Below the pieces are notes generated by a model. The model was not told where the DNA came from, did no database searches, and saw nothing but the letters and a program-made list of their open reading frames with translations. Position numbers and translations under genes: made by a program. Below, one piece after another: positions 27,062 through 60,233 of a stretch of DNA of 64,000 nucleotides. The stretch is from Pontiella desulfatans (lineage in GTDB: Bacteria > Verrucomicrobiota > Kiritimatiellia > Kiritimatiellales > Pontiellaceae). The stretch lies in contig NZ_CAAHFG010000001.1 in NCBI RefSeq assembly GCF_900890425.1, positions 3,782,001-3,846,000 on the forward strand. The letters are read 5' to 3'. Each line of letters starts with the position of its first letter. The stretch's first letter is position 1.

Positions 27062-27122
27062 AGCATCGCAATGCCCGAATCGGCTGTACATTGCCGTCCG
27101 CAAAACGTTAAATGGGGCCATT

Positions 27123-33431: not shown

Positions 33432-33458
33432 GATTGTACTCCAGATTAGGATTTAAGC

Positions 33459-33506: not shown

Positions 33507-33520
33507 TGGTATTCTACACG

Positions 33521-33817: not shown

Positions 33818-33838
33818 GGCTTGCTCCTTTCGGTTCTG

Positions 33839-36138: not shown

Positions 36139-36159
36139 GGACAACAGCCATATAAACAG

Positions 36160-36207
36160 AAGGTCGCGAAGAGCGCAAAGCAAACAGCCCGGCATCTTCG
36201 CGACCTT
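36160..36207. repeat. Inverted repeat between gpmI and the lptC-like gene
   Basis: Arms AAGGTCGCGAAGA (36160-36172) and TCTTCGCGACCTT (36195-36207), perfect, 22-base loop. The text is of the kind GGTCGCGAAGAGCGCAAAG, resembling dispersed repeats seen in many environmental bacterial genomes. Confidence 0.65.
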
Positions 36208-36227
36208 CGCACGCTTCATTCCACCCG

Positions 36228-39717: not shown

Positions 39718-42700
39718 CTACCGCCCCAGCAACACCTCCGCGCTCAGGCCATCGCGGCATTCGATTTCGATGACGGTTTGGCCGTTGGCGGAAGAGATGA
39801 TCTTCGGCTGGCTTCCGGCGGTTTCCATCGGCTGGACGAGCTCGTCGATCTTCCATTCGCCGGCGAGGGTGATGCGGACGGTGTTCGGGCGGCTTGGCCA
39901 GAAAAACCATTCGCGCTCGTAGATGGAAAGCTCGGTGCGGGAGCCATCGGGCAACAGGTCGTCCTGGCCGTCGTAGATATTGAGGTCGGGATCGGAAACG
40001 TTCAAACGCAGCTTTTCCCCGTCGGCTTTCACGATGAAGGTTGAGGCCTTGTTCACCGACTTCACCGCGCCCTGATCGAACGTGGCTCCATTTTCGGCAT
40101 AGACCGCGTAGGCGGTCGCCGCTTCTTCGTTCAGGGAAACCACATGGGCCCTGGCATCCCTTTGCAGCACGTCGATGGTTGGCCGGGAGGCAAACGCCTT
40201 CATCGAGTCGGAATCGGCACCGGCCACCAGCACATATTCATAGCCGGCGCTTTCCGGAGCCTTGCCGTGGTCGAACCAGGCCGTGGCAACGTTGCCGGAG
40301 ACTTCGCCCTTATCGTGGCATTGGGGATGGGTCTGCTCCGAACGCGTCAGCTTGATTTCACCCGACGGCACATAGTAGCCCGTTCCGCGGTTGTCGATCA
40401 GCCACTGCGGTTGCTTGGTTTTAAGCGTCCGCTTGAGCGGAAACTTGGCCAGGTCCTTTCCGCGAATCTTGATGGGCTGTTCCGGTGAATCCAGCTGGGT
40501 CTGGAACAGCGTGGTCTCGACGGCATATTCGGGAATCTTGCTGCAGATGTCGGAACCGAGGCAGACGACCTTGTTGCCGACGAAGAACCACGATTTTTTG
40601 CCGGTGAAGGATTCGAGGCCATACTTGTCGTGCCCCTTGAACTCGAAGGCGTGAACGCCGCAGCCATAGGAGGTTTCGACCCCGCCGGAGAAGGCCTGGT
40701 CGGAGAAGAGGTATTCGCCGCCCTCGTCGCGCACCTTGCCGACGCGCGTGGCCATCTCTTCGAAGGGCATTTTGACCGAGGTGGTTCCCGGGTAGCGGCG
40801 CCAGTCGATGCCGTCGTGCCAGGTGCCTTCGGCCGGTGTCAGGCTATCGAGCGAACCGGGATAGGCGACGTCGAGGTAGCCGTTGGCAATAAAGAGCGGA
40901 AAGGCGAAGAAGTCCCTGCCCCAGCTTTCAAACGGATAGACATATTTGGAGTGCGTGCGCGCGGTGATCATCCAGTCGTTCTTCCGGCGCTTCATGCCGA
41001 CGCAGGTGTAGGGCAACGAGCGGAAGCCGTCGAGCGGTTCGTAGGGGGTGCCCATCGTGTCGAGCATGGCGGCAAACTGCTCCGAACTGGTGTAGTTGCT
41101 GAAGCGGATGGAGGCAAACGCCTTAGGCGTCATCATCTTGTCGGTGAACAAGCCATCATAGTAGGTCTGCGCCACCTTCCGGATCCGGCGCGCGGCATCT
41201 TCCGATGCCTGGAACGACGTACCGCTCAGAATGTCGTAGGTGCAGACGGAACCATAGATGGCGCGGCCACCATAGCCATAGGCGTGTCCGGCGTGGTGGA
41301 AGATGGTGCCATCGGGTTTGAAGGTTTCATCGAGCGCGTTGGCGTAGGCGGTTTCGACGTTGGAGAAGAAGGAGGAAAAGTGGCGCAGGTCGCGCGCCTT
41401 TTCGGGCGAATCCTTCATCAGCATCGGCGTAAGCAGGCGCAGGGAAAGCAGCCCCTGCATGTCGTCGGCGTCGCACGCCTTGCGCCCCGCCCAGCCATAG
41501 GCCTGGTCTTCGCGGTAAACACGGTTGAAGCCGGTCAGCCACTTGCTGGTTTCAATCGCCTGGCACAGGCGGCCGTGCCGCTCCAACGGCTCGCGCATAA
41601 GGAACAGTGCGGGCACATATTCGCGGATGATGTAGGCATAATGGTGGATCCAGCCGAGTCCGGCGCCGGCAGCCATGCCCTGATCCTGTCCATAGTCGAA
41701 CAGATCCATGAACAGGCTTTCGAGCTTGGCCTTGTTTTCGGCGGACGCGGTGCATTCCCACGCCTTGGCAATCTGGAACAGTGTGGCGCAATAGTCGTGG
41801 CGCCAGTTCATGATGCCGTCCCACAGCTTGTCCGGAGGAATGCCCGCCTCTGAAAAATATTCCTTCATCACATTGCCGAAGACCAGCGGACGGCCATAGA
41901 TGTTGCCGCCGTCGCGAACGATTTCGAATCGGGCAAATTTCTTTTCAATGCCCGCAATCTTGGAATCGTTCCACTTCGCCCGTTCGTCTTCGTCGAGCCA
42001 GTACGGCATGGCCTGCCGTTCCAAGGTTCTGAAATCGGCGACAACCCCATCCGTCAGCGGCGCGAGATTGAACGTCGGGGTGAGTCCGTTGAAATGCAGC
42101 AACCGGTGCTCGTACTGCGAGACCAGGCGCCCGTGCGAATCGATCTCCGGCAGCTGCGGATTGGCCCCGACGGTGCGCGGGTTCATCGGGACGGAAAGAC
42201 CGATCGTATCGATGAAAAAGGTTCCCGAACCGGTGTTCGGCGCGTGGATGGTCATGCGGGTCATGTCTTCGCGCGGGAGGCCTTTCATGTCGCCGCGGTC
42301 GTAGTTGAGGGCGATGGTGCGCCAGCCCTTGAAGTTGAGCCAATAGTCGAACCAGCAATCCACCTCGTCGCCGCGGCCGAACTCGATGCGGAGGCGCTGC
42401 GGACGGGCTTCGTCGTTATGGATCCACATGAAGAAACCGTGGGGCGTTTCGAGAATCTCCATGTTCGTGGGGTCGGCATGGGTCATGAGCGCATCATCCT
42501 CCGCGTCCAGCTTGCGCTGCTTGCGGTAGCCGATGGGGGTGTCGAACACGATCCGGTCGTTGCCCTTCCATTCCCATTTCACCGATTGCGACCCGTGCTT
42601 CATGCGCGTGGTATCAAGCGAGACCGTCCCAGTGGCGGCGAAGCCTTCGGGCATCCCCTCCTCGAAACTCTCGATGCTCTTCGCGGGGGTGTTATACGCG

Positions 42701-42756
42701 CTCCCCATCATGGGGAATACCAGGGCCAGAACGGCGATGTGATCAATCAGCTTCAT
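39718..42756 (-). CDS. Secreted PL8-type (chondroitin ABC lyase-like) protein 3
   Basis: 1012 residues. Signal peptide (MKLIDHIAVLALVFPMMGSA), an N-terminal lyase-N-like beta-sandwich (SIESFEEGMPEGF; GSQSVKWEWKGNDRI), an alpha/alpha-toroid catalytic part and C-terminal beta-sheets. The catalytic-site equivalent is DGTIFHHAGHAYGYGG: His488 and Tyr495 align with His501 and Tyr508 of Proteus chondroitinase ABC I. The Arg expected downstream (AGRHP-type motif) is not seen where expected; the text there is SSEQFAAMLDTMG. Unlike the other two, it lacks the C-terminal DNRLRE and Ca-repeat tail. Last gene of the sulfatase operon, 9 bp after the GH29 stop. Confidence 0.78.
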   Translation of the reverse strand: MKLIDHIAVLALVFPMMGSAYNTPAKSIESFEEGMPEGFAATGTVSLDTTRMKHGSQSVKWEWKGNDRIVFDTPIGYRKQRKLDAEDDALMTHADPTNMEILETPHGFFMWIHNDEARPQRLRIEFGRGDEVDCWFDYWLNFKGWRTIALNYDRGDMKGLPREDMTRMTIHAPNTGSGTFFIDTIGLSVPMNPRTVGANPQLPEIDSHGRLVSQYEHRLLHFNGLTPTFNLAPLTDGVVADFRTLERQAMPYWLDEDERAKWNDSKIAGIEKKFARFEIVRDGGNIYGRPLVFGNVMKEYFSEAGIPPDKLWDGIMNWRHDYCATLFQIAKAWECTASAENKAKLESLFMDLFDYGQDQGMAAGAGLGWIHHYAYIIREYVPALFLMREPLERHGRLCQAIETSKWLTGFNRVYREDQAYGWAGRKACDADDMQGLLSLRLLTPMLMKDSPEKARDLRHFSSFFSNVETAYANALDETFKPDGTIFHHAGHAYGYGGRAIYGSVCTYDILSGTSFQASEDAARRIRKVAQTYYDGLFTDKMMTPKAFASIRFSNYTSSEQFAAMLDTMGTPYEPLDGFRSLPYTCVGMKRRKNDWMITARTHSKYVYPFESWGRDFFAFPLFIANGYLDVAYPGSLDSLTPAEGTWHDGIDWRRYPGTTSVKMPFEEMATRVGKVRDEGGEYLFSDQAFSGGVETSYGCGVHAFEFKGHDKYGLESFTGKKSWFFVGNKVVCLGSDICSKIPEYAVETTLFQTQLDSPEQPIKIRGKDLAKFPLKRTLKTKQPQWLIDNRGTGYYVPSGEIKLTRSEQTHPQCHDKGEVSGNVATAWFDHGKAPESAGYEYVLVAGADSDSMKAFASRPTIDVLQRDARAHVVSLNEEAATAYAVYAENGATFDQGAVKSVNKASTFIVKADGEKLRLNVSDPDLNIYDGQDDLLPDGSRTELSIYEREWFFWPSRPNTVRITLAGEWKIDELVQPMETAGSQPKIISSANGQTVIEIECRDGLSAEVLLGR

Positions 42757-42765
42757 GTGATTTCC

Positions 42766-44280
42766 CTAATTCAGTTCCATTTTAAACACCGTGGCGATTT
42801 CGTCCAATTCCGCATCCGGCACCGCCAGCCAAAAGTTGCGCTTCGCCCAGTGGAACGGCACCTCGACCTGGGTTCCCAACACCGTGATGCGCTTGATGCC
42901 GCCCTCCGGACAATAGGTGTGCCTGGCCAGGTCGCGGATTTCGATTTCGCTGCCGACCGCCGGCTTGCCGAGCATGAAGAGGTAGAGGAACCGTCCATCC
43001 TTGGAGCGCAGGAAGCGGCCATCCTTTTCGGTGTACTGCACAGTGGCCGACTGCCCGCCGTGCTGGCCGGCCTCGACCTTGGCATGGCCGAAGCCATAGA
43101 CATCGAACGCGCGCGTTCCGTAGACGGCCTCTCCATGCTTTTTCATCCAGGCGCCGATCTTGAGCAGGATGTAGTGCTGCTCCTGCGGGATCACACCGTC
43201 GGCGCGCGGCGAAATGTTGAGCAGCACCACCCCGTTCTTGCTCCAGACATCGATCATGTTGCGCACCACCAGCTCGGCCGGCTTGTATTGCTGCCCCTCG
43301 ACGTAGCACCACGACTTGGTGCCCAGCGTCACGTCGGTCAGCCAGATGGACTCCGAAAGATCCTTCTTCCCGCCCTGCTCGATGTCGAGCACGCCGATGG
43401 AAGACGGCATGTCCACCTGCTTGTAGGCAATGACCACCTCCTGGTTTTTCTTTTGCGCTTCATTGAGGTAGTAGGCCGCGAACTGCTTGCGGTATTCCTG
43501 CGGGATCATCTTCAGCCACGAATCGAACCAAATGATGTCCGGCGAATATTGGTCGATGACTTCCTTCAACTGATCGAACCAATATTGGTTGAACTCGGCC
43601 TCGGGCATATTGCCGTAGAGCTTGCGCAGCACCGGGTTGGTCGACGAGGTGGCAAAGTCCGGGTGGTAGGCAAAGTGGCTGTTGTAGCCGCCCCACTCCT
43701 CCGGCTTGTCGGCATAGCGCTGGCCGACGCGCGCATGATGGAAGGTGGTGATGAATTTCATTCCCCTGGCCTTGATCGACTTTTCGAGCAGCCCGGTGAT
43801 GTCGCGTTTGGGGCCGCGATCGGCGGCATTCCAGGGATTCACGGAACTGTCCCACATGGCGAATCCATCGTGGTGCTGCGCGCACGGCCCGGCAAACCGG
43901 GCCCCGGCATCCTCGAACAGCTGCGCCCACTCTTCGGCATCGAACGCTTCGGCTTTGAACATCGGAACAAAGTCGTGGTAGTTGAACGTGGCGGGATCGC
44001 CAAAGGTCTTCGCGTGGTGCTCCTTCACCTTGCCGTCGCGGTACATGTGGTAGGGATACCACTCCCCGTCGAAAGCCGGCACCGAATAGATGCCCCAGTG
44101 GAAATAGATCCCCAGCTTGGCGTCGGCAAACCAATCCGGCGCCTGTTCGTGCGCGGCGAGCGATTCCCAGTCCGCTTCGTATCCGGCACCCGGGTTCGTG
44201 GCGCACGAACTACCCAGCACAACCACCAGCAACCATAGCGTTGCATGAACCATGTTCCGTTTCATCCGCTTGCGTTCCAT
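42766..44280 (-). CDS. Alpha-L-fucosidase (GH29), lipoprotein
   Basis: Releases alpha-linked L-fucose. 504 residues. Lipobox LLVVVLGSSC anchors it to a membrane. GH29 marks: WFADAKLGIYFHWGIYS, FAGPCAQHHDGFAMWDS, MKFITTFHHAR and the nucleophile in PDIIWFDSWL; NGVVLLNISPRADG closes the barrel. Start ATG 44278-44280 has GGGAGG 8 bp upstream; the frame runs seven codons further. Lies between the beta-propeller glycosidase and PL8 protein 3. Confidence 0.92.
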   Translation of the reverse strand: MERKRMKRNMVHATLWLLVVVLGSSCATNPGAGYEADWESLAAHEQAPDWFADAKLGIYFHWGIYSVPAFDGEWYPYHMYRDGKVKEHHAKTFGDPATFNYHDFVPMFKAEAFDAEEWAQLFEDAGARFAGPCAQHHDGFAMWDSSVNPWNAADRGPKRDITGLLEKSIKARGMKFITTFHHARVGQRYADKPEEWGGYNSHFAYHPDFATSSTNPVLRKLYGNMPEAEFNQYWFDQLKEVIDQYSPDIIWFDSWLKMIPQEYRKQFAAYYLNEAQKKNQEVVIAYKQVDMPSSIGVLDIEQGGKKDLSESIWLTDVTLGTKSWCYVEGQQYKPAELVVRNMIDVWSKNGVVLLNISPRADGVIPQEQHYILLKIGAWMKKHGEAVYGTRAFDVYGFGHAKVEAGQHGGQSATVQYTEKDGRFLRSKDGRFLYLFMLGKPAVGSEIEIRDLARHTYCPEGGIKRITVLGTQVEVPFHWAKRNFWLAVPDAELDEIATVFKMELN

Positions 44281-44316
44281 ACCAACAACCTCCCGATCCA
44301 TTAATGACTTTCAACA

Positions 44317-45375
44317 CTAAACCGAACCTGCCGAAACGGGCTTCAAGGGCACCACCATGTTCCAGGAATGGTTCCCGGGCTTGGGATCGGAAAAGCCCCC
44401 CTCGCCTTCCCATATGGCGAAGAACAGGTGCGAAGGCTGCCCGTCTTCAACGAGAGCGCTACACCGTTCGACATTACCCAGCAACTGCCTGGATCCATCC
44501 GCCCATTGGATGTTGCGGGTATAGGCCTTTGGATCGTCGTGCAACGTCCAGCCGAGGCAGTCCGGGGAATGCGCAAGGATCCCCGCGCCCCGCTCGCCGG
44601 TAATTTCGCCAAACTGATCCTTGGCGAGCATGTGGAAGCCATCTTCGTTTTTCCAAAGGAAAGGATCCTCGATCACGCCGAAGGTCTTTTCCGAGAAAAG
44701 CGGCTCGTCGTTGAGCACCGTGTAGGGGCCGGCATAGTGCGGCGCCGTTGCCAGACCAATATTCATTTCGCTGTGGATATGCCCTTCATAGCGGCGCGAC
44801 TTGAAGATCAGATGGGCCGAGCCGTCATCATGGATGACCGGCGCCGGATTGCTCGTCAGGAAACTGTAGAAGGAATCCGGCTTCGTTTCCAACACCGGCG
44901 CATCCATCCGCTCCCACGGCCCGAAGACGCTGTTGGCAACCGCAATGCCGATGCGTTTATTGGCCCGGCCCGCGATGCACCACTTGCTATCCAGCGTCAG
45001 TTGGTCGGCCATCTCTTCCGTCACATCCTCGAACGGATGCGTTGAGCCCATGTAGTAGAGGACATACGTGTCGCCGTGCTTCACCATGCGCGGGTTATGC
45101 GTGGAGCGCCCGTCCCAATATTGCGCACCGCGTGCCGGCAGCACCACTTCCTCGAAGGCGTATGGCCCTTCCGGCGTGTCCGACGAAGCCCGCACGATTT
45201 CCGAGGCAATCATCCAGGCCGGGTGAAACCGCTGGTATTTCGGGACCCGCGAGGCAAACATATGGTAGCGCCCGTCCTCGCCCTTGACGACCGAGCTGCC
45301 CCACACCCACCAGCCCTCCATGCGGAAACCCTGTTCCCGCGAGACGGTTCCGATTCGGTCGAATATTGGATTCAT
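44317..45375 (-). CDS. Glycoside hydrolase of the five-bladed beta-propeller fold (GH43/GH117-like)
   Basis: 352 residues, no signal peptide. Blade repeats: GEDGRYHMFASRVPKY, YVLYYMGSTHP, VIHDDGSAHLIFKSRR and VIEDPFLWKNEDGFHMLAKD, the last with the D-P acidic site seen in GH43. Start ATG 45373-45375, 1 bp after the sulfatase stop. Family is not certain among GH43, GH117 and related; substrate unknown. Being cytoplasmic by prediction, it may act on imported oligosaccharides. Confidence 0.75.
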   Translation of the reverse strand: MNPIFDRIGTVSREQGFRMEGWWVWGSSVVKGEDGRYHMFASRVPKYQRFHPAWMIASEIVRASSDTPEGPYAFEEVVLPARGAQYWDGRSTHNPRMVKHGDTYVLYYMGSTHPFEDVTEEMADQLTLDSKWCIAGRANKRIGIAVANSVFGPWERMDAPVLETKPDSFYSFLTSNPAPVIHDDGSAHLIFKSRRYEGHIHSEMNIGLATAPHYAGPYTVLNDEPLFSEKTFGVIEDPFLWKNEDGFHMLAKDQFGEITGERGAGILAHSPDCLGWTLHDDPKAYTRNIQWADGSRQLLGNVERCSALVEDGQPSHLFFAIWEGEGGFSDPKPGNHSWNMVVPLKPVSAGSV

Positions 45376-45376
45376 G

Positions 45377-46909
45377 CTAAGCAGGATACCGAATGATGTC
45401 GGCGAACTTTTTTTCACGGTACCAGGGATCGTTCGACTGCTTCAGCCACATCCCCAGCTCGGCCAAAATGAACTCCGCGTCCGCCGGCGGGATATCCGGC
45501 AACTGAAGTTCCTTCATCTGGTACGGATCGTTTTCATTGTCGAACAGGAACTGCCCGCCCTCTTCATCGATCTGGAAGGAGTAGCGATCCGTGCGCAGCC
45601 CCTTGAACCGGTTGTTGTAGCCCAGGAAGTGCGCCGATTTCGGTTTGGGCTGGGTCGACCAGTCGCCGGTGATGATTTCGCGCGAATAGTTCCTGCCCTC
45701 GACGGACGAAGGAATGCGATCCTTGAGTCCCAGCATGCCCAAGACCGTCGGCATGATGTCCGGCGGGGTGATCATCAGGTCTTCGAGCGTTCCCTTGGTT
45801 TTGCCGGGAACCTTGATCAGGAACGGGACGCAGAAGGCTTCCTCGAAGATGACCAGCTTGCCGAACTTGTTGTGGCTCCCCATCATTTCGCCATGGTCGG
45901 CGGTGAATACCACAATGGTGTTGTCCGCCTCACCCGCCTGCTCCAGGGCCTTGAACACGTGCCCCAGCTGCTGGTCGACCCCGGTCACATTCGCAAAATA
46001 GAACGGCGCGCGTTTTTCGGCCAGCGCCTTGTTTTCACCCTCCACATTCGGACGCGTCAGCAGGCCGGGCTTCCCTTTGTAGTGCTCCCGGTAGGCCACC
46101 TCGTCGCAATCCTTTTCCGAATCGTACGGGTTGTGCGGCGGATTCGGCGCCCAGATGATGGAAAACGGTTTGTCCGGATTGCGTTGGCCATGGCTGTTTT
46201 TGAGATAGTCGGCCAGGACATCGGCTTCCAGTTTCGGCGAATAGATTTTCGGGCGGTATTGCTCGCCGTCCTTCCGGCCTCCGACCTTTTCCGGATCGTT
46301 GGAATAGACGCGCGGGTCCTTGTGGACATCCTTCACGCACTGGAACCAATATCCGTTTCCGTGGCGCCCGCGCCCCGGCGGGATGTAGGTGTCGTACGGA
46401 TTAAAGTGGTGACCGCCCGGCGCATCGGTTGAGCCGACATAGTTCTGGTTTTCATCGAACAGCGGATCGTTGCGCTCCCAGTGGGTTTTGCCCACATAGC
46501 AGGTGTCGTAGCCCGCACCGGCAAGCACATCGGTAAAGCACTGGATATCGTGTTTGAGGTGATCCGTCCGGGTCTGGTGGCAATTGTTCACCACCCCGTT
46601 CTGCCACGGCCACATGCCGGACATCAGCATGGCGCGGTGCGGGCTGCAAACCGGACAGGTGCTCACCGCCTGCGTGAACACCACGCTCTCCTGCGCCATC
46701 TTGTCGAGCGTTGGGGTAACGACCGGGTCGGACGCCGTGCGCAGCTTCCCCTTGAACGGGCCCTGTTGCCAAAAACCCATGGCCTCGCGTCGCATCTGGT
46801 CGGGAAAAACAAACAGCAAGTTAGGCGGCTTCCGTTTTACGGCGAGCGTGCTGGAACCCAGCATGGCGGCTCCGGCGGTCATGGTTTTCAGATAATTGCG
46901 TCGTTTCAT
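45377..46909 (-). CDS. Arylsulfatase-family sulfatase, Tat-exported
   Basis: Hydrolyses sulfate esters (S1 family). 510 residues. Twin-arginine leader MKRRNYLKTMTAGAAML; substrate-metal start NLLFVFPDQMRRE; formylglycine motif CSPHR with Cys88 (anaerobic sulfatase-maturing enzyme or FGE needed); VGKTHWE; FTADHGEMMGSHNKFGK near the C-terminal half. Start ATG 46907-46909 follows GGGAG at 5 bp. Upstream frame extension is promoter sequence. First gene of an operon with the beta-propeller hydrolase, GH29 and PL8 protein 3. Confidence 0.95.
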   Translation of the reverse strand: MKRRNYLKTMTAGAAMLGSSTLAVKRKPPNLLFVFPDQMRREAMGFWQQGPFKGKLRTASDPVVTPTLDKMAQESVVFTQAVSTCPVCSPHRAMLMSGMWPWQNGVVNNCHQTRTDHLKHDIQCFTDVLAGAGYDTCYVGKTHWERNDPLFDENQNYVGSTDAPGGHHFNPYDTYIPPGRGRHGNGYWFQCVKDVHKDPRVYSNDPEKVGGRKDGEQYRPKIYSPKLEADVLADYLKNSHGQRNPDKPFSIIWAPNPPHNPYDSEKDCDEVAYREHYKGKPGLLTRPNVEGENKALAEKRAPFYFANVTGVDQQLGHVFKALEQAGEADNTIVVFTADHGEMMGSHNKFGKLVIFEEAFCVPFLIKVPGKTKGTLEDLMITPPDIMPTVLGMLGLKDRIPSSVEGRNYSREIITGDWSTQPKPKSAHFLGYNNRFKGLRTDRYSFQIDEEGGQFLFDNENDPYQMKELQLPDIPPADAEFILAELGMWLKQSNDPWYREKKFADIIRYPA

Positions 46910-46937
46910 TCGAACTCCCGTTCCGGTGGATAACAAT

Positions 46938-46987
46938 GCAGGAGAGTATGCCGATTGCCTGGCGTTGAGAAGCCCATCTTTGCGCAG
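46938..46987 (-). promoter_or_regulatory. Candidate promoter and TTGCGCAG box upstream of the sulfatase operon
   Basis: Minus-strand -10 TACTCT (46948-46943), and TTGCGCAG at 46980-46987, 29 bp upstream of the AGTAT complement; in the two related promoters this distance is 28. Only one box is clear; the second, expected at about 47002, is degenerate. Also matches the caspase-gene promoter over 22 bp (46938-46959). Confidence 0.4.
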
Positions 46988-47039
46988 ATGTCCCACGGCA
47001 TTCACGCATTCCATTCGCCCCCAAAACCGATCGTGAAGG

Positions 47040-49280: not shown

Positions 49281-49300
49281 ATAACCCTCTATCCGCATAA

Positions 49301-49321
49301 AATCCGCCGTTTAGGCGGATT
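49301..49321 (-). terminator. Hairpin followed by TTTT before the beta-helix gene
   Basis: Minus strand AATCCGCC-TAAAC-GGCGGATTTT, about 20 bp before the start of 47040-49280 and about 70 bp after the stop of 49389-52463. Could partly terminate transcription between the two genes. Confidence 0.6.
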
Positions 49322-49349
49322 ATCCGGAACCCCTTCAAACCACACGCAT

Positions 49350-49376
49350 GGCAAGCCCCGCATGCGGAGGCTTGCC
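49350..49376 (-). terminator. Stem-loop after the 49389-52463 gene
   Basis: GGCAAGCC at 49350-49357 pairs with GGCTTGCC at 49369-49376, with CCGCATGCGG inside, 12 bp after the stop. No U-tract, so it may stabilise the mRNA end rather than terminate. Confidence 0.5.
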
Positions 49377-49388
49377 AGCGCGAACCCA

Positions 49389-52300: not shown

Positions 52301-52463
52301 TATTCGCCAGATCAACATATTCGAAATCGGCAATGGCCGGGTTCAACGGCAGGACACCACTCCATGCCGTGCCAGCAACCAGGCAGGTCGCCAGGGCCCA
52401 GCAAAGCTTCTGCAACGACCTGATCCTTGATGCAATCAACGTAGGTAATGACTTTGTTCTCAT
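49389..52463 (-). CDS. Large secreted protein with an internal duplication, function unknown
   Basis: 1024 residues. Signal peptide (LCWALATCLVAGTAWS). Beta-rich throughout. A CBM-like first part (IADFEYVDLANTVVASAG) is followed by two similar about-200-residue segments: the first from VLAFNVDGNKDDFEYL to DNIALVGDF, the second from VLAYNVDDVREDFEFV to DNIAFLGSL; both contain YVAGDL/YISGDL, DFDWTFGS/DFDWTFAS and ATFRLIVKSSTDA/ATFRFSIQSSTTA. The end has a Ca-binding repeat (DDPDLDGLSNLEEYARNG) and a short beta-domain. Start ATG 52461-52463 follows GGAGGAGTATCG. No family recognised; a surface glycan-binding protein is a reasonable guess because of its context and regulated promoter. Confidence 0.78.
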   Translation of the reverse strand: MRTKSLPTLIASRIRSLQKLCWALATCLVAGTAWSGVLPLNPAIADFEYVDLANTVVASAGLALTNSEAWTVEIINDADGDVVINFDSGKTPPSGLLSMLMNTKDEDDAASITSTNLGVSMVEGNTYRFSFDSFEDLTGTKEFVFEVHRYSDNEVLSSNRLAAVHATWTKHFVEYVAGASDAGDDLYLKIWRDSAVHGNKAVRIDNIVLEEIGDAFTDSARVLAFNVDGNKDDFEYLATGVGVGVALNSALDGAASGGSVDASYGTFDDPAGANSNSPAAYPWAANGTTFLEVDVTITNTSAHDLKLNGLYFDIFRSTDTSLRRFEMEYVAGDLSDPTGQLYAVTLYTTTGTGSWKDFDWTFGSQGENPSSAPVAFNAMSDRVLGTNETATFRLIVKSSTDAATEPDAVLVDNIALVGDFIPDGVLVDWGSPDMFFGDEGNVDLRLGSHAATTNGNLLIRNYHPEMPILDRSLGDGFYQAQPLHGMLQVGNKGALAESTGFRYARLAGGNPSAGSMILTAEPATNATDIYQSSLVYVKAGDFYDDIGVGENLTSLSMNIDSFSADVGEVRFAVLNDDQWFVSSAKATAAGTFALSFPIAENAWAAFSPATTGATSMASAKGLFFDTTGVDFTNIQAVGYFMEGEDLVDATNVSFRVDDFEVLIGEAPSAFPKSEVLAYNVDDVREDFEFVKGGVDFTLTMISLGNGSATSQGSLDGSLGSFQDPVSADTNSPARPWAGRGDTPLVAEMTIGNVTPDSSLGLSGFHFDLYRHQVASIAARQIQLEYISGDLAGVSSGLVYQVIMEPEEFVSYEVTNVVEGVTNITTILPWADFDWTFASIGNIPSAGTVVFNPLADMSLAYGESATFRFSIQSSTTAEAEGNQTRLDNIAFLGSLKGVGFGSWISSFGLAPADRDAEDDPDLDGLSNLEEYARNGDPNDIGNTGTASTIEVAAGVLNYVHPQRSDDDNLLYYVEVNDNLVHGTWTNSGYDITGTNVTGVTLDYVTNAVPTTDKAAKFIRLKVQQM

Positions 52464-52530
52464 CGATACTCCTCCATGCATTTAAGGTTTAAAACGTGCA
52501 ACCAACCGAACCCCGGGCGCTATTCTTCCC

Positions 52531-52610
52531 ACGGTATGTTGGATATAGTAGGCGGTCGCTGAAATAAGAGAAGGAATGCTTTGCGCAAGATAAGTCGATG
52601 ATTTGCGCAA
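52531..52610 (-). promoter_or_regulatory. Regulated promoter with two TTGCGCAA boxes (unit 2)
   Basis: Minus strand: TTGCGCAA boxes at 52603-52610 and 52581-52588 (22 bp apart, two helical turns), a weak -35 (CTTCTC, 52573-52568) and -10 TACTAT (52550-52545). The inferred transcript start near 52538 leaves a 75-nt leader. The same arrangement, with the same spacing, precedes the gene at 60234-61979. The boxes sit at about -43 and -65, fitting an activator such as an AraC-family protein; TTGCGCAA is itself palindromic, so a LacI-type operator is also possible. Confidence 0.7.
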
Positions 52611-52693
52611 CAAAAACCAATTAAAATATGCACGGCCGGTACGGAATATGTTCAAGGTTTTAATACGAACAGGGCCTCGGAGAGCTCCAAGAC

Positions 52694-55600
52694 TCAGTCC
52701 GCCCGCTGCACATCCACTTTGTAGAATCCGGCGGACACTGCATTGTGGGCCGTATCGGTATAGGCGCCCTGGGGAAACAGGATTCCGCTGGCGAGGTTGG
52801 TGAAGGCGTTGGTCAGCGAAACGCTGTGCCACACGCCGTATGACCGGTTGGAGACGGCGCTCCACTCCACGACAAAACCCGAAGACAGGTTCGTGGATGA
52901 GGCCGCGAAAAAGGATCCGGCGTTGGTGGGATTGGTTCCCGCAATGAATTCGGCGAGGTTATCGAACCCATCGCCATCATCGTCCACAGAGACGGTCGCG
53001 TTGGTTGCCCCTCCGAAGTATTCGAACTCCCATCCGTTGGGCAGTCCGTCGGCATCCTTGTCGCCGCCAAGGCTGACCGCCACGACCTCCAGTACCGGCA
53101 CATTCGCACCTTCCTTCGTATCCACATTGCTGTAGCTGCCCTCGTTGCTCATCAGACCGAACGACAGCTTGCCAGCGCCGGATACGGAAGCGGTCACATC
53201 GAATGACTCCCAAGAATCAATCACAACAGAATGCGAGTCCACCACACCGCCTATGGCAGGTTGCTGATTCCAGGTCAACGCTCCTTCAGTCCAGCTTGTA
53301 TCAGCCACATCATGCACGGTGAGAATAATGTCATTATGCGAACAGTAAAGGCGGAGCATGGCGGAGAGCGGAATCATCCCCTCAGTATCGGCATCGAACA
53401 TCAGATAGCCGTGCATCGCCTTGCTAAATTTGTCAGAACGGATCGCCATCTTGGCGTTCGCTCCGTAATTTACGGATGGATCATTCTGGGAGCTATGCGC
53501 ATCGTGAATCGGCGTAAACTGAAACGTGCGTTCCTCGATTTCCGCATGGGGATTCGCCAACTGCACATCCAGCGGCTCACCGTTGTTCGTCTGGAACCGC
53601 AGGGTTGTTTCCGAGCCGTTTGTGCTGACCAGCGATATACCGGCATCGGCATCAATGATCGCCCAGGTGCCGTTGAGGATCAGCTCAACGGGAACGGGGG
53701 CATCCAAAACGCCGGCACCGTCAAAGTTCAACACGGGATTCACCAGCGTCAAATCGATGATCCCATCCCCTTCCAGCATCACGAGGCAGGGATCGGAATT
53801 CCCCTTCACCACGGAACCCGCAAGGCTGCTGTTCGGGGCAAACAGTGCGTAGGCTTCCACCGATCCCGATTTAACGATGTGCCCGGCGGCATCATTCTTA
53901 ACGACCGAATAGAAAGCACCTGCCGAGCCGGCAAACGAGGCCATCTCCGCCGCGCTGGATTTGGGAACCGCGACATATTCATATTTCGAGTTTAATGGAC
54001 TCGTTTCGTGATCCAACCAGGCCACCGCAAAGTTTCCGCTGTAGGTTCCCGTGCCATCCTGCTGCGGCGAGGTCTGGTTCATTTTGGTGAGTTTGATCGA
54101 GTCGTTGCCGGCGGGAACATAATATCCGGTGCCGACGTTATCCAACAGCCAGCGGTTGCCCGTCATCCCCAACGTCTGATCCAACGGGAACCCCGTCTCC
54201 GAAACGCCATCCACCACCACGGCATCCGCCGTGTTTTGCAGATGGTTCTGGAACAGCGTTGTGATCGTGGCATTCGCGGCATCGTCATTCTGTATGCCTG
54301 ATCCAAGGCAGATCAGCTTTCCATCGATACAGAAAACGGACTTCTTGAACCTGAAGGTGGGGTTGTGGTTCGCGCTCAGGTTTTTCTGTTGGAAATCCAT
54401 GGCAAATAATCCGATTTCACCTTCCAAGGCGTCTTCGCCTTCCAGGTAATACTCGGCTTTCGCGCCGAACCGCAGCGCCCCGCAGAAGATCGAATCGGTC
54501 TTTTCATCCTCGCGGCCATTTGCATTGAGCTGCGTCCACGGCAGATGGATGGTGGTTCCGCCGGGGGTGGCGTTCCAGTTCCAACCTTCTTCCCGCTTGC
54601 CGCTGGCACCGTTGCCTCCGGCATAGAGGATTTCCACTGCGCCATATCCGGCATAGCGCGAATACTGGCTGGTGCCGGCATAGATTTCCTGCCCCATGAA
54701 ATGGTTGTTGAAGCCCTTGATGTCGGCCACCCAGTCGTCGTCGCGATAGACGCCCATCGGCGCATAGTTCAATTGCCAGAAGCCGTTGGGATATTCTTCC
54801 GGCTGATAACCCGGAACGGCGTCCGAGGGTTCCATGAGGTTGTAGGCCCGCGCCAGCTGCCCGTCGACCACCGGCGAGTTCACGAGATAGCCGATCCCCG
54901 ACGAAATACTGTTGATGGTGGTCAGTGGCGAGCCCCGCCCGGCCAACGACATCGGCATATCCTTGGCGCTGGCATTCAGGCGCTGCACCAGCATGCACTT
55001 CTTCAAGTGGTCATACGCCTGCGCATCAATGCCAAACTCCGTACCGCTCATATTAGCAACCGCCCATGAAATCGATTTATATGCAGGCGCCACATAGCGC
55101 GCCGGATAATAGTGGTTGTGGTGGAAGCCGGTGTAGTCCGGCTTAACTCCTTCACCCGTCTGGGGCTGCGGCGTTGCCCAAACCTGGACATAGTCGCGCA
55201 GGCCTTTCAGGTATTGCACCTGTTCCTCCACCGTATCCTTGAAAAAGATGCAGCAATAGCGCGCGATCGTCCGCGTGTTGCCCGCATCCATATTGCTCAC
55301 CTCGGCCGTCGGCTCCCAGATGCCGTCGAGCGCAGCAAACCAACAGGCCATGGCATAGGCCTCGTCCCAGAGGCCCTCCGCCTTCAGCTCATCCTCCATC
55401 AGCAGCACCGCCAGCGGATAGGGCCGGAACGAATAGCCGATGTGGTGAACCGTCTCCATCACACAGCCAGATTGGTAGCCCTGGTCGAGCGTATGCCGGA
55501 TCATCTGCATGAACTTCGTGCGGCTGCCGGCGGAGCCGTTATGGTAAAAATCGCGGGCATAGTGGAGGATCACATTGTCCAGCAGCTCGATCGTTTCACT

Positions 55601-56431
55601 GTCGTTGTGCTCTTTTCCAAATAATGGTTTGCCCTTTACCGTGCCGTCGGGGTTCGTCGTAATCCCCAGCGTTGCGTAAACGCTGTCGGCGGCACTCAGG
55701 TTGGAGGCGGACGGACTGCTCCCGCGGATATAGTCCAGCACCCCGTTTTTCATTCCGACCAGGTCGGCCAATTCCTGTTCTGTCGGCGTTTCCCCGCCAT
55801 GGTTGCGCGGCAGCTCCGAGTAATACCGCATGCGCGACCAATGGTTGTCGCCCAGGTCAAGCTTGTATGGGATATGGGTGGAGGAGGCGCTGCTGGTAAT
55901 GCGGTCGCCCGTAAAATCCACGCGGTCGATAAACACCGTTCCGCCGCCCGCAACCGCCGGCATCTGCAACGTCATGGTCTGCAGATCCTGGGAATTTTTA
56001 TTCCCGAACATTTCATAGCGATAGCTGATGGAAACCGGGCGCCAGCCCTTCCAGTTCAGATAAAACCAGTAGTGGTACTGGACATTGCCGTTGCCATCCT
56101 TGAATGAGACCGTGACGGTTTCGTTCGACAGCGGCGCCTCGTTGTAGACCCACATGTAGAACGTGTTTTCGTAATAGCCCTGCACTTCGCTGGTCACCAA
56201 ACCCTGCGACTGCAAGTCCGTAACCGTCAGCACATCCCCGCTCCCCCAGTCCCACTGCAACGACTGCGAGCCCTCCTTGTAATGATAACCGGAAACCGAC
56301 AGTCCGCCCGTCGATCCGCTCCACGAGGCCGGCACCCCGCTTTCAAAACCGACATCAACCGCCGCATGCACGGAAGCGGCCAACCACATGGCCAACACCG
56401 GTACACTGTATTTGTGAATGCCAATACTCAT
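52694..56431 (-). CDS. Secreted PL8-type (chondroitin ABC lyase-like) protein 2
   Basis: 1245 residues. Signal peptide (VLAMWLAASVHA), lyase-N domain (VDVGFESGVPASWSG; GSQSLQWDWGSGDV), alpha/alpha toroid, then beta-sandwiches. Active-site text TGFHHNHYYPARY: His438 aligns with His501 of chondroitinase ABC I and Tyr446 probably with Tyr508 (one extra residue between them). Arg in MSLAGRGSPL matches the expected Arg560 region. C-terminal to about residue 920 come a DNRLRE module (DPSVNYGANAKMAIRSDK) and the Ca-repeat tail (DDDGDGFDNLAEFIAGTNPT). Start 56429-56431 has GAGGG at 5 bp. Follows PL8 protein 1 by 26 bp. Confidence 0.83.
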   Translation of the reverse strand: MSIGIHKYSVPVLAMWLAASVHAAVDVGFESGVPASWSGSTGGLSVSGYHYKEGSQSLQWDWGSGDVLTVTDLQSQGLVTSEVQGYYENTFYMWVYNEAPLSNETVTVSFKDGNGNVQYHYWFYLNWKGWRPVSISYRYEMFGNKNSQDLQTMTLQMPAVAGGGTVFIDRVDFTGDRITSSASSTHIPYKLDLGDNHWSRMRYYSELPRNHGGETPTEQELADLVGMKNGVLDYIRGSSPSASNLSAADSVYATLGITTNPDGTVKGKPLFGKEHNDSETIELLDNVILHYARDFYHNGSAGSRTKFMQMIRHTLDQGYQSGCVMETVHHIGYSFRPYPLAVLLMEDELKAEGLWDEAYAMACWFAALDGIWEPTAEVSNMDAGNTRTIARYCCIFFKDTVEEQVQYLKGLRDYVQVWATPQPQTGEGVKPDYTGFHHNHYYPARYVAPAYKSISWAVANMSGTEFGIDAQAYDHLKKCMLVQRLNASAKDMPMSLAGRGSPLTTINSISSGIGYLVNSPVVDGQLARAYNLMEPSDAVPGYQPEEYPNGFWQLNYAPMGVYRDDDWVADIKGFNNHFMGQEIYAGTSQYSRYAGYGAVEILYAGGNGASGKREEGWNWNATPGGTTIHLPWTQLNANGREDEKTDSIFCGALRFGAKAEYYLEGEDALEGEIGLFAMDFQQKNLSANHNPTFRFKKSVFCIDGKLICLGSGIQNDDAANATITTLFQNHLQNTADAVVVDGVSETGFPLDQTLGMTGNRWLLDNVGTGYYVPAGNDSIKLTKMNQTSPQQDGTGTYSGNFAVAWLDHETSPLNSKYEYVAVPKSSAAEMASFAGSAGAFYSVVKNDAAGHIVKSGSVEAYALFAPNSSLAGSVVKGNSDPCLVMLEGDGIIDLTLVNPVLNFDGAGVLDAPVPVELILNGTWAIIDADAGISLVSTNGSETTLRFQTNNGEPLDVQLANPHAEIEERTFQFTPIHDAHSSQNDPSVNYGANAKMAIRSDKFSKAMHGYLMFDADTEGMIPLSAMLRLYCSHNDIILTVHDVADTSWTEGALTWNQQPAIGGVVDSHSVVIDSWESFDVTASVSGAGKLSFGLMSNEGSYSNVDTKEGANVPVLEVVAVSLGGDKDADGLPNGWEFEYFGGATNATVSVDDDGDGFDNLAEFIAGTNPTNAGSFFAASSTNLSSGFVVEWSAVSNRSYGVWHSVSLTNAFTNLASGILFPQGAYTDTAHNAVSAGFYKVDVQRAD

Positions 56432-56457
56432 AAAATCCCTCATCCTGTTCAAGATGC

Positions 56458-59400
56458 CTACGGCACCGGCCTCACATCCACCTGGTAGAAACCTTCCGAC
56501 TCACCGGCATGGAGAGTATCCGTATAGCTGTTTTGCGGAAAGAGGATTCCGGCCGCCAGATTGGTGAAGGCGTTAGTCAGCGAAACGCTGTGCCACACGC
56601 CATATTCGCGATTGGAAACGGCGCTCCACTCCACCACAAAACCGGAAGGCAGGTGCGTGGATGAGGCCGCGAAAAAGGATGCCTCGTTGGTGGGATTGGT
56701 TCCCGCAATGAATTCGGCCAGATTATCGAACCCATCGCCGTCATCGTCCGCAGAGGCGGTCGCGTTGGTTGCCCCGCCGAAATATCCGAACTCCCAGCCG
56801 TTGGGCAGTCCGTCGGCATCCTTGTCTCCGCCAAGGCTGACCGCCACGACCTCCAGCACCGGCGCATTCGCACCTTCCTTCGCATCGACATTGCTGTAGC
56901 TCGCCTCGTTGCTGATCAGTCCGAACGACAGCTTACCATCGCCGGATACGGAAGCGGTCACATCGAACGTTTCCCAGACATCGGCATCGACCGAACGGGA
57001 ATCGGCCACCGCGCCCATGGGCGGCTGGTTGTTCCAGGTGAGCGCCCCTTCCGTCCAGGTGGTGTCGGCCACATCGAGAACGGAAAGCACGATGGGGTTG
57101 TGCGAACAGTAGAGCTTGAGGGTTGCCGAAAGCGGAATCATCCCCTCGGTATCGGCATCGAACATCAGATAGCCGTTCATGGCGGAGTCATATTTGTCCG
57201 ACCGGACTGCCAGCTTGGTGTTCACCCCATAGTTTGTGTCCGGGTTCGACTGAACCGTGTGCGCATCGTGAATGGGATTGAATTCGAAAGTTCTTTCTTC
57301 AACGGGGACACTTTCATCCAACAGCTCAACATCGAACGGCTCAAGGTCGTCGGTCATGAACAACAGCGTAGTTTCGGTTCCATTCGTTGAAAGCAGCGAC
57401 ACACCGGTGTCGGCATCCGTAATCGTCCAGGTTCCGCGCAAGGTAAGTTCCACCGGAACCGGGGCGGGGTCATCGTAGGATCGGGCTTCCAGCCCCTGAT
57501 CGGGATTGACCATGGTGAGTTTGATCGGATTGCTTCCGCCGACCATCACCAGGCAAGGCTCGGAGCTGCCCTTGACCACCGTATCCAGCGAATTGACGGC
57601 AGCGGTAAACCGGGCATGCGCCTCAACATCGCCAAACCGCACAACGTGTGCGGCGGAATCCTTCTGCAAAACCTCATAGGGTTTGCCCGACATCGTTGCG
57701 CTGAAGGCCTGCATTCCAGCCGAATCGGTGGCGGGTTTCACCACATATTCATACCCGGCTCCCGATGGAGCTTTCCCGTGGTCGAACCAGGCCGTCGCAA
57801 AATTACCCGAGGTGGTTCCCGTACCGTCCTGCTGCAGCGACGTCTGGTTCTGGCGCGTAATCTTCAGGCCTTGAGACGAATCAATATGGTAGCCCGTACC
57901 GTAGGCATCCAATAACCAGTGGTCTCCATCCACAACGGTATTGCTGTAAGGAAAGGCCGTGATGCTGGAGTTGTCGAGCACGATGGGATCGGAGGTGTTG
58001 TTGAGCTTCCCCTGGAACAATGTGGTGATGATGTCGTTCGAAGCATCGGTACACTCAATATCCGAGCCGAGGCAGACGATGTAGTCATCGATGAAAAACC
58101 AGGATTTCCTGAACCGGAAGGAACCGTCGTGCGTGGGGGTCAGGCTTCCGTCCTGCTGAAAATCGGTGGCATACATCCCGATCTCGCCGCGGTCGAGTAT
58201 GCGCCCCGCCTCGATTTCATTAAAACGAAGACCTCCTGCAAACGTTGAGGCCGCCCGTTCGTCGGAACGGGAACCCGGCGGGTTCAGATCGGCATGAGGC
58301 AGGACTTTGGTGGTGGTTCCGGGCGGGCGGTTCCAATCCCAGCCATTGATATGGAAGCCGCTGGCCGTAAAGCCGCCGGGATACATGATTTCCAATGCTC
58401 CATACGACTGGTAGCGCCCGCACCGGTTTTCGCCCGAATAGGTTTCGGTTCCCCAGAACACATTGTTGAGGCCATGCGCCGTCGCCACCCAGTTGTCCTT
58501 GCGGTAGACCGCAACCGGGCTCCAGTTGAATTGCCAGAAACCTTCCTGGAAGGTTTCTGTTGGATAGTTCGCCATCAACGTCGAGTCGTCGCCGTGGATC
58601 CGGTTGTAGGCGGAGGCAATCATCGGGTCGGCCGTTTCGCCGAGCACATCCCCGCCGGCATAGGCCAGATTATTGAAGGCGCCTTGGTTTAGCGGCGAGG
58701 GCTGCGAAAAGGGATAGCGGCCGCAGAGGCTGTTGGCATATTCACCGCTCGCGGTCGACATGACGAGCGAAGCATAGGCCATGTCGCGGAAGTTTTCATA
58801 ACTCTCCTGCGCGATCTGAAATTGTGTGCCGATCAGGGCATGCAGCACATCGGCATAGGACGAGAAGGCATACATGTAGTGGTTGTAATGCGTCCAATGA
58901 TGAAACCCGGTTCCATCGGGCTTGATCCAGTCGCCGGTGCCCTTGGCGGGCACATTAGAAAAATCGAGGAACTGCTTGAAGCCCTTCAATTGGCGAACCG
59001 CTTCGTTGTCGTCCTCAATAAACGCCAGTGTGCCCAGCTGAAACCTGAAATTCGTATACACATGATCGGAACTCAGCGCATCGTCGCCCGGCCATTCCGG
59101 AACCCAACTGCGCCTGGCTTTGAAGACCCACATCGCGGCGTCCACCAGCTCCGCCCGCAAATCCGTTGGAAGGTATTCGAGCATCAGCACCAGCCCCTGG
59201 AAATAGTCGCGGGTGTCGTACCAGCCATAGGAAAAATCGGAGCCGCCGGCATAGCCCAGATCGTTCAGGTGCCACAGCAGGTTCTTCGCCATTTCATAGG
59301 AGTTGCTGTTGCCGGTGTGGAAAAAGTGCTGCGCCAAATCCAGCAGGTGGCCATCGGCTTCTTGCGGCGTGGTCACCTGCCCTTTAATGGCGTTTCCGTT

Positions 59401-60135
59401 AACAACAATGTTAAGGCTGTTGTAGTAGGTCGTGGCGTTCGAAATGTTCGGCGTTCCACCGTCGAACCAGTTGCGCAGGTAGGTGCGCAGCGTCGTCAGG
59501 TCGGCTAGCTCCCCGGCGGTGGCCGGCGCATACGGAATGTTCGGCGCCAGGGCATCCACGTCGATGTATCCCGTGTCGGAATAATAGCCCGACACATCGG
59601 GCATCTGTCGGCTGGCATGGCGGGTGTAGCGGCTGCGCACAAATTCCCAGTCGTCCAGGAATACGGTGCCGGAGCCGGTGGATGGCGCGTGGATGACCAC
59701 TTTATCAATATCAGTGGTCGATCCGGAAATGGCCTGCATGTCGTAGCGGTAGCTTCGCGAGATGCGGCGCCAACCCTGATAGTTCAGGTAAAAATCGAAA
59801 TGGTAGTTCACCGTTCCGGATGCATCCAGAAACTCAATCGTCAACGGTTCATTGATGGATGCTTCGTTATAAACAAAGGCCTCCATCGTGTGGTTGTAGA
59901 AATCGAGAATCTTCGAGGGGTCGATTCCCGGCGTGGCCACCTCCAGCGTATCGCCCGCCACCCAATCCCACCGCAACGAGTCGGAGCCGATGCGGTAATG
60001 GTCTGAACTGATTGCCAGGGAACCTGCCGTCGCACTCCAGTTGGCGGGCACACTACCCTCGAAATCAATGGTCTGAGCCTGCAGCCCACCTGCGGCCAGG
60101 AAGAAAAGAGCAGCGCTGGTTAGCAACAGTTTCAC
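56458..60135 (-). CDS. Secreted PL8-type (chondroitin ABC lyase-like) protein 1
   Basis: 1225 residues. GTG start 60133-60135 (GAGGG at 6 bp; the frame opens 31 codons earlier through a hairpin) gives the signal peptide KLLLTSAALFFLAAGGLQAQ. Lyase-N domain (TIDFEGSVPANWSATAG; GSDSLRWDWVAGDTLEV), then the catalytic toroid with DGTGFHHWTHYNHYMY: His413 and Tyr420 equal His501 and Tyr508 of chondroitinase ABC I, and SLCGRYPF supplies the Arg. DNRLRE module (NPDTNYGVNTKLAVRSDK) and Ca-repeat tail at the end. It is the best preserved of the three. Substrate by family: chondroitin, dermatan or hyaluronan chains; specificity unproven. Confidence 0.86.
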   Translation of the reverse strand: MKLLLTSAALFFLAAGGLQAQTIDFEGSVPANWSATAGSLAISSDHYRIGSDSLRWDWVAGDTLEVATPGIDPSKILDFYNHTMEAFVYNEASINEPLTIEFLDASGTVNYHFDFYLNYQGWRRISRSYRYDMQAISGSTTDIDKVVIHAPSTGSGTVFLDDWEFVRSRYTRHASRQMPDVSGYYSDTGYIDVDALAPNIPYAPATAGELADLTTLRTYLRNWFDGGTPNISNATTYYNSLNIVVNGNAIKGQVTTPQEADGHLLDLAQHFFHTGNSNSYEMAKNLLWHLNDLGYAGGSDFSYGWYDTRDYFQGLVLMLEYLPTDLRAELVDAAMWVFKARRSWVPEWPGDDALSSDHVYTNFRFQLGTLAFIEDDNEAVRQLKGFKQFLDFSNVPAKGTGDWIKPDGTGFHHWTHYNHYMYAFSSYADVLHALIGTQFQIAQESYENFRDMAYASLVMSTASGEYANSLCGRYPFSQPSPLNQGAFNNLAYAGGDVLGETADPMIASAYNRIHGDDSTLMANYPTETFQEGFWQFNWSPVAVYRKDNWVATAHGLNNVFWGTETYSGENRCGRYQSYGALEIMYPGGFTASGFHINGWDWNRPPGTTTKVLPHADLNPPGSRSDERAASTFAGGLRFNEIEAGRILDRGEIGMYATDFQQDGSLTPTHDGSFRFRKSWFFIDDYIVCLGSDIECTDASNDIITTLFQGKLNNTSDPIVLDNSSITAFPYSNTVVDGDHWLLDAYGTGYHIDSSQGLKITRQNQTSLQQDGTGTTSGNFATAWFDHGKAPSGAGYEYVVKPATDSAGMQAFSATMSGKPYEVLQKDSAAHVVRFGDVEAHARFTAAVNSLDTVVKGSSEPCLVMVGGSNPIKLTMVNPDQGLEARSYDDPAPVPVELTLRGTWTITDADTGVSLLSTNGTETTLLFMTDDLEPFDVELLDESVPVEERTFEFNPIHDAHTVQSNPDTNYGVNTKLAVRSDKYDSAMNGYLMFDADTEGMIPLSATLKLYCSHNPIVLSVLDVADTTWTEGALTWNNQPPMGAVADSRSVDADVWETFDVTASVSGDGKLSFGLISNEASYSNVDAKEGANAPVLEVVAVSLGGDKDADGLPNGWEFGYFGGATNATASADDDGDGFDNLAEFIAGTNPTNEASFFAASSTHLPSGFVVEWSAVSNREYGVWHSVSLTNAFTNLAAGILFPQNSYTDTLHAGESEGFYQVDVRPVP

Positions 60136-60170
60136 GGACAACCCTCGGAACAGCCTTGTGCAGTGTTTAG

Positions 60171-60201
60171 CGGAAAACCCGCCATGCAGGCGGGTTTTCC
60201 G
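60171..60201 (-). terminator. Strong hairpin between the 60234-61979 gene and PL8 protein 1
   Basis: 13-bp perfect stem CGGAAAACCCGCC / GGCGGGTTTTCCG with a 5-base loop, 33 bp after the upstream stop and before the GTG of the next gene. T residues lie in the stem rather than after it. May partly terminate or protect the first message. Confidence 0.65.
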
Positions 60202-60233
60202 GAATAATCCATAATTGGATGGGAACAATGGGT

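Follow-up and report, generated by a model that had tools for sequence, protein, structure and literature searches.

In Bacteroides thetaiotaomicron, the polysaccharide utilization locus for chondroitin sulfate, dermatan sulfate and hyaluronan (PUL-CS/DS/HA) groups PL8 lyases, PL29 and an S1_27 sulfatase in one region, with PL8 beside S1_27, according to the accessible part of PMC6994673. We describe here a locus of Pontiella desulfatans (Verrucomicrobiota; Kiritimatiellales) that has these features in common with it, its PL29 counterpart being PL29-like. The locus lies in a stretch of 64,000 nucleotides that was analyzed as a whole and is called the window below (C1:3782001-3846000 of the 8,658,305-base genome). 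Three PL8 genes (PL8A, PL8B and PL8C), a GH29 gene of the alpha-L-fucosidase family, a sulfatase gene and a propeller gene had been named in a preliminary description of this DNA, and all were found, on the minus strand. Unlike PUL-CS/DS/HA, the locus has GH29 and GH95 genes beside the lyases and more PL8s and sulfatases. GH88, the next enzyme of the B. thetaiotaomicron system, is not in the region, its DUF4955 proteins score under the BT3328-family cut-off, and no SusC/SusD was seen among the regional proteins scanned with Pfam, no dedicated genome search having been made. In our interpretation, the locus is an operon for the catabolism of chondroitin-type glycosaminoglycans that includes an alpha-L-fucosidase step, and we give this interpretation a probability of roughly 0.55. 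It is built on the genes present and their families, on motifs and synteny, and on statistical linkage; substrate, order of steps and location are what we infer from these.

Two other groups of described systems invite comparison. The chondroitinases ABC I of Proteus vulgaris (1hn0, 7eip) and B. thetaiotaomicron (2q1f) resemble all three PL8s in domain order, fold and the catalytic His, Tyr and Glu; unlike them, PL8A has a shortened segment without the xGR motif, PL8C lacks the HH pair, and PL8B and PL8C carry CBM96. Marine fucoidan clusters, in the portion of PMC12786026 available, contain GH29, GH95, GH107, GH141, GH168 and S1 sulfatases. The likeness lies in GH29 and GH95 accompanied by many S1 sulfatases, the difference in the PL8 chondroitinases and chondroitin-type endosulfatase found here. 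GH107, GH141 and GH168 were not recognized among the proteins scanned, although no dedicated search was made for them.

Our data suggest fucosylated chondroitin sulfate as the best-known polymer that would fit such a gene set, and the set is compatible with further chondroitin-type glycans that bear fucose. In this polymer, sulfated fucose is 3-O-linked to the uronic acid (PMC3917272, in part). One native preparation yielded no disaccharides with chondroitinase ABC (PMC4192483, in part), so debranching before lysis would make chemical sense. We found no biochemically characterized bacterial locus for fucosylated chondroitin sulfate in the literature searched, outside which most subscription papers fall. 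Utilization loci for it predicted by annotation do appear in the part of PMC12313589 that is accessible, abbreviated FCSP and citing Sichert 2020; we infer that this wording is a mis-expansion of "fucose-containing sulfated polysaccharide".

Lyases and sulfatases of the locus

The case for a chondroitin-type backbone as the target is strong. It combines the PL8s, the CS/DS-like endosulfatase, the PL29-like and beta-glucuronidase genes and growth of the probable host strain: F1 (P. desulfatans) and F21 (P. sulfatireligans) are reported to grow on both chondroitin 4-sulfate and fucoidan (accessible text of PMC6388578), and PL8 chondroitin lyases are mentioned in the F1 and F21 genomes in the portion of PMC7356697 available.

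By domains and best matches, all three PL8s are chondroitinase ABC-type lyases, with beta-elimination as the predicted reaction. Lyase_N, Lyase_catalyt and Lyase_8 follow one another in each, and the catalytic domain was found with Pfam E-values of 3.9e-51 (PL8A), 6.2e-51 (PL8B) and 1.6e-29 (PL8C, where the Lyase_catalyt match begins at profile position 115). The closest solved structure to PL8A is the B. thetaiotaomicron chondroitinase ABC 2q1f (E 2.8e-106), which is also the first structural match of its AlphaFold2 model (E 2.1e-67; mean predicted local distance difference test, pLDDT, 77.8). The first solved match of PL8B and PL8C is chondroitinase ABC I of P. vulgaris (see Table 1 for E-values).

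The active sites differ among the three. His, Tyr, Arg and Glu are what we take to be the catalytic residues of PL8 chondroitinase ABC. All four, together with the HH pair, are present at the aligned positions of PL8B. PL8C retains the four residues and has DFSYGWYDTR in place of the HH pair, whereas PL8A retains His, Tyr, Glu and HH and lacks the xGR motif that holds the Arg. The chondroitinase-ABC-like active-site text noted earlier for all three proteins is thus complete only in PL8B. Loss of HH as an oddity of PL8C was rejected, because other PL8s of the order lack the pair too.

The missing motif of PL8A was examined in 41 of the 43 PL8s of the order, which also entered the PL8 tree; two contig-end fragments were left out. 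Alignment A2 excluded loci L042 and L026. PL8A (E up to 1e-100) is present in 4 of the 43 genomes of the order. The xGR motif is absent from all four orthologues, one of which has LFGK, and the stretch concerned measures 95-96 residues in them. In the other 37 PL8s, xG[R/K] is present (29 called by script pattern and 8 read by eye from the printed sequence) and the stretch runs to 100-154 residues. The PL8A group (window 39718-42756 and loci L060, L063 and L066) has the shortest Arg-motif stretch of the 41. Since pLDDT falls below 50 at residues 539-542, 548-555 and 606-613 of the PL8A model, the model does not show what might stand in for the Arg. It is a speculative and rather doubtful idea that PL8A founds a lyase subgroup in which loss of the Arg loop opened the cleft, so that chondroitin with fucose on O3 of glucuronic acid would be cleaved, and that with GH29 and the S1_27-type sulfatase it would make up a pathway specific to fucosylated chondroitin and retained in Kiritimatiellales.

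The sulfatase of the locus carries the formylglycine motif C-x-P-x-R as CSPHR at residues 123-127. Its closest solved structures are 6s21, named "Endo-4-O-sulfatase" (2.7e-100), 8di0 (3.3e-93) and the CS/DS 4-O-endosulfatase 6j66 (8.1e-77), followed by 2qzu (2.5e-66) and by matches of 1.5e-30 or weaker. It is therefore predicted to be an S1_27-type CS/DS 4-O-endosulfatase, a class taken from the nearest solved structures rather than from SulfAtlas. The genome holds three copies of this type (E up to 1e-60), all in the PL8 region at C1:3.68-3.83 Mb. A divergent sulfatase at C1:3855362 resembles S1_19 (8.7e-85) and human GalNAc-4-sulfatase (6.3e-84). The earlier remark that only one sulfatase is present and others would be needed proved to be an effect of the window, since at least 11 sulfatase genes lie within C1:3.68-3.88 Mb (200 kb). 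A shortage of sulfatases was also rejected at genome scale, where 555 first-look candidates were counted and all 150 that were scored matched.

Fucosidase genes beside PL8 genes

The P. desulfatans genome contains 55 PF01120 (GH29) domains, so a single GH29 beside one PL8 is weak evidence, and linkage was assessed across the order. The order-wide data strengthen the link to fucose: alpha-L-fucosidase genes lie next to PL8 genes considerably more often than expected, and they do so in several different arrangements. A PF09093 census gave 43 PL8s, located in 10 of the 43 genomes. GH29 genes occur within 1, 5 and 10 kb of 7, 13 and 16 of these PL8s, respectively; the GH29 density predicts 0.9 such PL8s within 1 kb and 2.8 within 5 kb, an expectation that assumes an even spread of genes and takes its densities from first-look candidate counts. 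With GH95 included, 15 of the 43 have a fucosidase within 5 kb and 20 within 10 kb. A GH2 control model, built from fewer sequences and less sensitive, was found within 5 kb of 2 of the 43. Chance adjacency in a GH29-rich genome was rejected on the 5-kb counts at the level of the order, not for P. desulfatans alone.

A second view came from the immediate neighbours of PL8 genes, classified by Pfam without prior choice of families (61 distinct neighbours from 76 sides, with three boundary-crossing sides omitted: one GH29, one sulfatase-like and one unknown). Sulfatases accounted for 10 of the 61 and alpha-L-fucosidases, the second commonest family, for 6, ahead of DUF2264 with 4. The heparinase II/III C domain was seen twice and chondroitinase B once, and no other glycosidase family occurred more than once.

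The GH29 protein of the locus matches the fucosidase 7snk (3.8e-92) and the exo-alpha-L-galactosidase 7ljj (1.5e-91). It has the motifs WFD and HHDGF and, judged by eye, a lipoprotein-like signal, LGSSC. Searched at 70% identity or more, it is represented by four genes in three species (one in P. desulfatans, two in F21 and one in Pontiellaceae bacterium B12227), all of them directly adjoining PL8A or the S1_27 gene while gene orders differ: S1_27-propeller-GH29-PL8A in P. desulfatans, S1_27-GH29 and PL8A-GH29-S1_27 in F21, and S1_27-another GH29-GH29-PL8A in B12227. Seven other matches have 47-58% identity. Five of these are in genomes without PF09093 (G002, G008 and G011), one is on a B12227 contig without PL8, and the seventh has a PL8 3.3 kb away in G029. 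G029 has four GH29 candidates, two of them within 5 kb of a PL8 (simple binomial 0.0025); its PL8A lies 6.1 kb from a GH95 and has no GH29 in the neighbourhood. Several GH29 genes of F21 adjoin or overlap PL8 genes.

Two further observations concern these families. A second F21 region (L141-L145, G028:C1:1576001-1676000) has seven PF09093 genes in GH29-rich neighbourhoods, with GH29 adjoining or overlapping PL8, and a GH95 74% identical to that of P. desulfatans; the listings for this region and for the beta-helix neighbourhoods described below show similarity to four reference neighbourhoods only. In P. desulfatans itself, about 53.7 kb before the window (C1:3728298-3728390), a 31-residue stretch between GH95 and sulfatase genes is 68% identical to the GH29 C-terminus and is perhaps the remnant of a second GH29 copy.

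A single inherited linkage was rejected as the source of the pattern. The label "fucosidase within 5 kb" was only weakly clustered on the PL8 tree, where it requires 10 changes compared with an average of 12.6 after shuffling (a count as low arose in 37 of 500 shuffles); the tree has long-branch warnings, one of which touches PL8A. In one PL8 clade, 1 of 13 rows is near a fucosidase compared with 14 of the 28 other rows (Fisher p 0.014, post hoc and uncorrected for kinship). A non-exhaustive pattern scan of genome contigs with the PL8 alignment returned 46 loci, 7 of which bear GH29. Four are inside the order (L008, L009, L020 and L027), and 3 are among the 39 loci outside it: L012 (Opitutae, partial and at an edge), L032 (Pedobacter sp. 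BS3, which also has an S1_27-like sulfatase) and L036 (Bryobacterales).

Substrate and alternative explanations

The genes allow a pathway to be proposed. PL8B and PL8C, both with CBM96, and the PL29-like proteins would cut accessible chains, the S1_27-type sulfatase would take 4-O-sulfate off N-acetylgalactosamine within the chain, and GH29 would remove the alpha-L-fucose branches. PL8A and other lyases would then finish the backbone through beta-elimination, and further sulfatases, a GH2 beta-glucuronidase and an SSF symporter, all within ~50 kb, would complete breakdown and uptake.

Several points weigh against a fucosidase step that acts on chondroitin branches. No GH29 or GH95 was found within 5 kb of 28 of the 43 PL8s, in some cases through contig ends, which hide neighbours; clusters and paralogues also make the linkage counts non-independent. 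In P. desulfatans, 1 of 6 PL8s has a GH29 within 5 kb against 0.45 expected, an excess that is not significant. The nearest solved relatives of the GH29 include exo-alpha-L-galactosidases, and L-galactose or other fucosides are possible substrates. Other glycans in the same tissue could be the source of the fucose, GH88 has 0 matches in the region and six elsewhere in the genome, and chondroitin 4-sulfate enrichments favoured mainly Marinilabiaceae rather than the clade of these isolates (accessible part of PMC6388578). A fucose sulfatase was not identified among four regional sulfatases compared with solved structures. The initial proposal of a fucosylated chondroitin sulfate locus is partly supported: the chondroitin backbone is well backed, and the fucose branches gain plausibility from a fucosidase family beside PL8 above expectation.

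The alternative that survives best is an ordinary CS/DS locus whose GH29 serves fucose glycans borne by proteoglycans (keratan sulfate, N- or O-glycans) instead of chondroitin branches. Its core of PL8, PL29-like and S1_27 genes corresponds to the PL8, PL29 and S1_27 of the B. thetaiotaomicron locus as the accessible text of PMC6994673 gives it, a paper that contains no word built on the stem "fucos". The growth of F1 on chondroitin 4-sulfate and the many PL8s of the order that lack a nearby fucosidase point the same way. An ordinary locus does not by itself predict repeated adjoining of GH29 to PL8 or S1_27, nor the absence of other repeated glycosidase families among the 61 neighbours, and we hold this alternative to be possible but somewhat unlikely.

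A substrate other than chondroitin for the PL8s, namely a marine polysaccharide of algal, diatom or bacterial origin that contains both uronate and fucose, is distinctly improbable. The PL8 family does include xanthan lyases and mannuronate-specific alginate lyases, as structures listed in our search show, and the GH29 relatives that are exo-alpha-L-galactosidases are of the porphyran type. These bacteria also grow on fucoidans, as noted above. The best matches of the PL8s are nevertheless chondroitinases ABC and not xanthan or alginate lyases, the nearest solved relatives of the sulfatase are CS/DS 4-O-endosulfatases, and chondroitinase B and heparinase II/III-type domains are among the PL8 neighbours in the order.

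Remodelling or recycling of the bacterium's own glycosaminoglycan-like exopolymer is very improbable: F1 and F21 do produce such a sulfated polymer in stationary phase, but it is mainly N-sulfated (75%, 80%) and likened to heparin/heparan sulfate (PMC7356697, accessible part), whereas the enzymes of this locus correspond to O-sulfated chondroitin types, and no biosynthesis genes were recognized among the nearby genes scanned, with no dedicated search made.

Taken together, the fucosylated-chondroitin case is plausible and better founded than it was from the window alone, and the chondroitin case is strong.

Locus layout and genomic setting

The genes of the locus within the window are listed in Table 1. 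They belong to a run of 13 consecutive minus-strand genes, from C1:3855086 down to C1:3821718, that extends ~9 kb beyond the window and includes two GH2-type genes. Past the run come a divergent pair of sulfatase and DUF4955 genes, an SSF symporter, more sulfatases and a double DUF4955 protein. A GH2 that is also encoded there scores 627.5 bits with the NCBIfam model for beta-glucuronidase, above its cut-off of 544 bits. On the opposite side, ~100-126 kb away, are three further PL8s with sulfatases, a regulator and GH95, and all six PL8s of the genome fall inside 147 kb. The G+C content measured across 202 kb around the locus is 55.7%.

Table 1. Genes of the lyase locus and their positions in the window
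Feature	Position	Strand	Evidence
PL8A (PL8 lyase, chondroitinase ABC type, 1012 aa)	39718..42756	-	Pfam Lyase_N, Lyase_catalyt, Lyase_8, Lyase_8_C
GH29 (alpha-L-fucosidase family, 511 aa)	42766..44301	-	PF01120 E 2.6e-97
Five-bladed-propeller-type protein, weakly GH43-like	44317..45417	-	GH43 24.7 bits, below cut-off
S1_27-type sulfatase, predicted CS/DS 4-O-endosulfatase, 545 aa	45377..47014	-	Pfam sulfatase 1.4e-40; solved relatives
Beta-helix protein with CBM96, 752 aa	47040..49298	-	PF12708, PF24517
1030-aa protein without Pfam match	49389..52481	-	51-58% identical relatives in F21, B12227 loci
PL8B (PL8 lyase with CBM96, 1252 aa)	52694..56452	-	Pfam; 7eip 4.8e-79
PL8C (PL8 lyase with CBM96, 1256 aa from TTG)	56458..60228	-	Pfam; 7eip 5.8e-73
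581-aa protein without Pfam match	60234..61979	-	~42% identical relatives in B12227, G029 loci
DUF4955 (PL29-like) protein, C-terminal part	62137..63999	-	Whole protein 1482 aa, C1:3844137-3848585, crosses window end

The preliminary description ended the locus at 60135, where an in-frame GTG is a possible PL8C start at a signal-peptide-like VKLLLTSA (by eye); the open reading frame that starts with TTG reaches further. It also passed over the beta-helix protein with CBM96 and the two proteins without Pfam match, and the latter two recur in the PL8A loci of relatives. The beta-propeller hydrolase that it listed is present as a gene, with a GH43 score below the Pfam cut-off of 32.2 bits, weak GH32/GH117-type matches and no signal peptide by eye. 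Of 387 genomes in the phylum, 57 contain relatives of this protein, and the PL8A neighbourhoods of three related bacteria contain none; it was rejected as a part of the pathway on that ground and is probably not core to the locus.

The beta-helix protein could act in the same pathway as a lyase or an epimerase. Its structure model (mean pLDDT 58.1) gave only general beta-helix matches, and its relatives in F21, G008 and G033 each have an S1_27-like sulfatase nearby, G008 being a genome with no PL8. In that genome, of the same genus and without PF09093, a contig (G008:C41, L123-L125) carries an S1_27-like sulfatase, a PL29-like protein, the beta-helix family and a GH2 beta-glucuronidase of 87% identity. 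The DUF4955 proteins are labelled PL29-like only, since the NCBIfam BT_3328_fam cut-off of 1100 was not reached by the part in the window (83.7 bits) or by the double DUF4955 protein at C1:3864985 (656 bits).

Rfam and tRNA scans of the window gave no matches, and promoter- and terminator-like sites in it are no commoner than in shuffled sequence. Adjoining the locus, at 30441-37877 of the window, are genes of PTS enzyme I type, HPr kinase, an ABC ATPase, LptA/LptD_N type and phosphoglycerate mutase, and an 829-residue protein with multihaem-cytochrome-like and TPR domains is encoded at 27036-29525.

The locus offers testable genes in what is probably a cultured type strain. Enzymes that debranch or cut fucosylated chondroitin sulfate would help to map the polymer and to make oligosaccharides from it, and they would show how sea-cucumber glycans are recycled in anoxic sediment.

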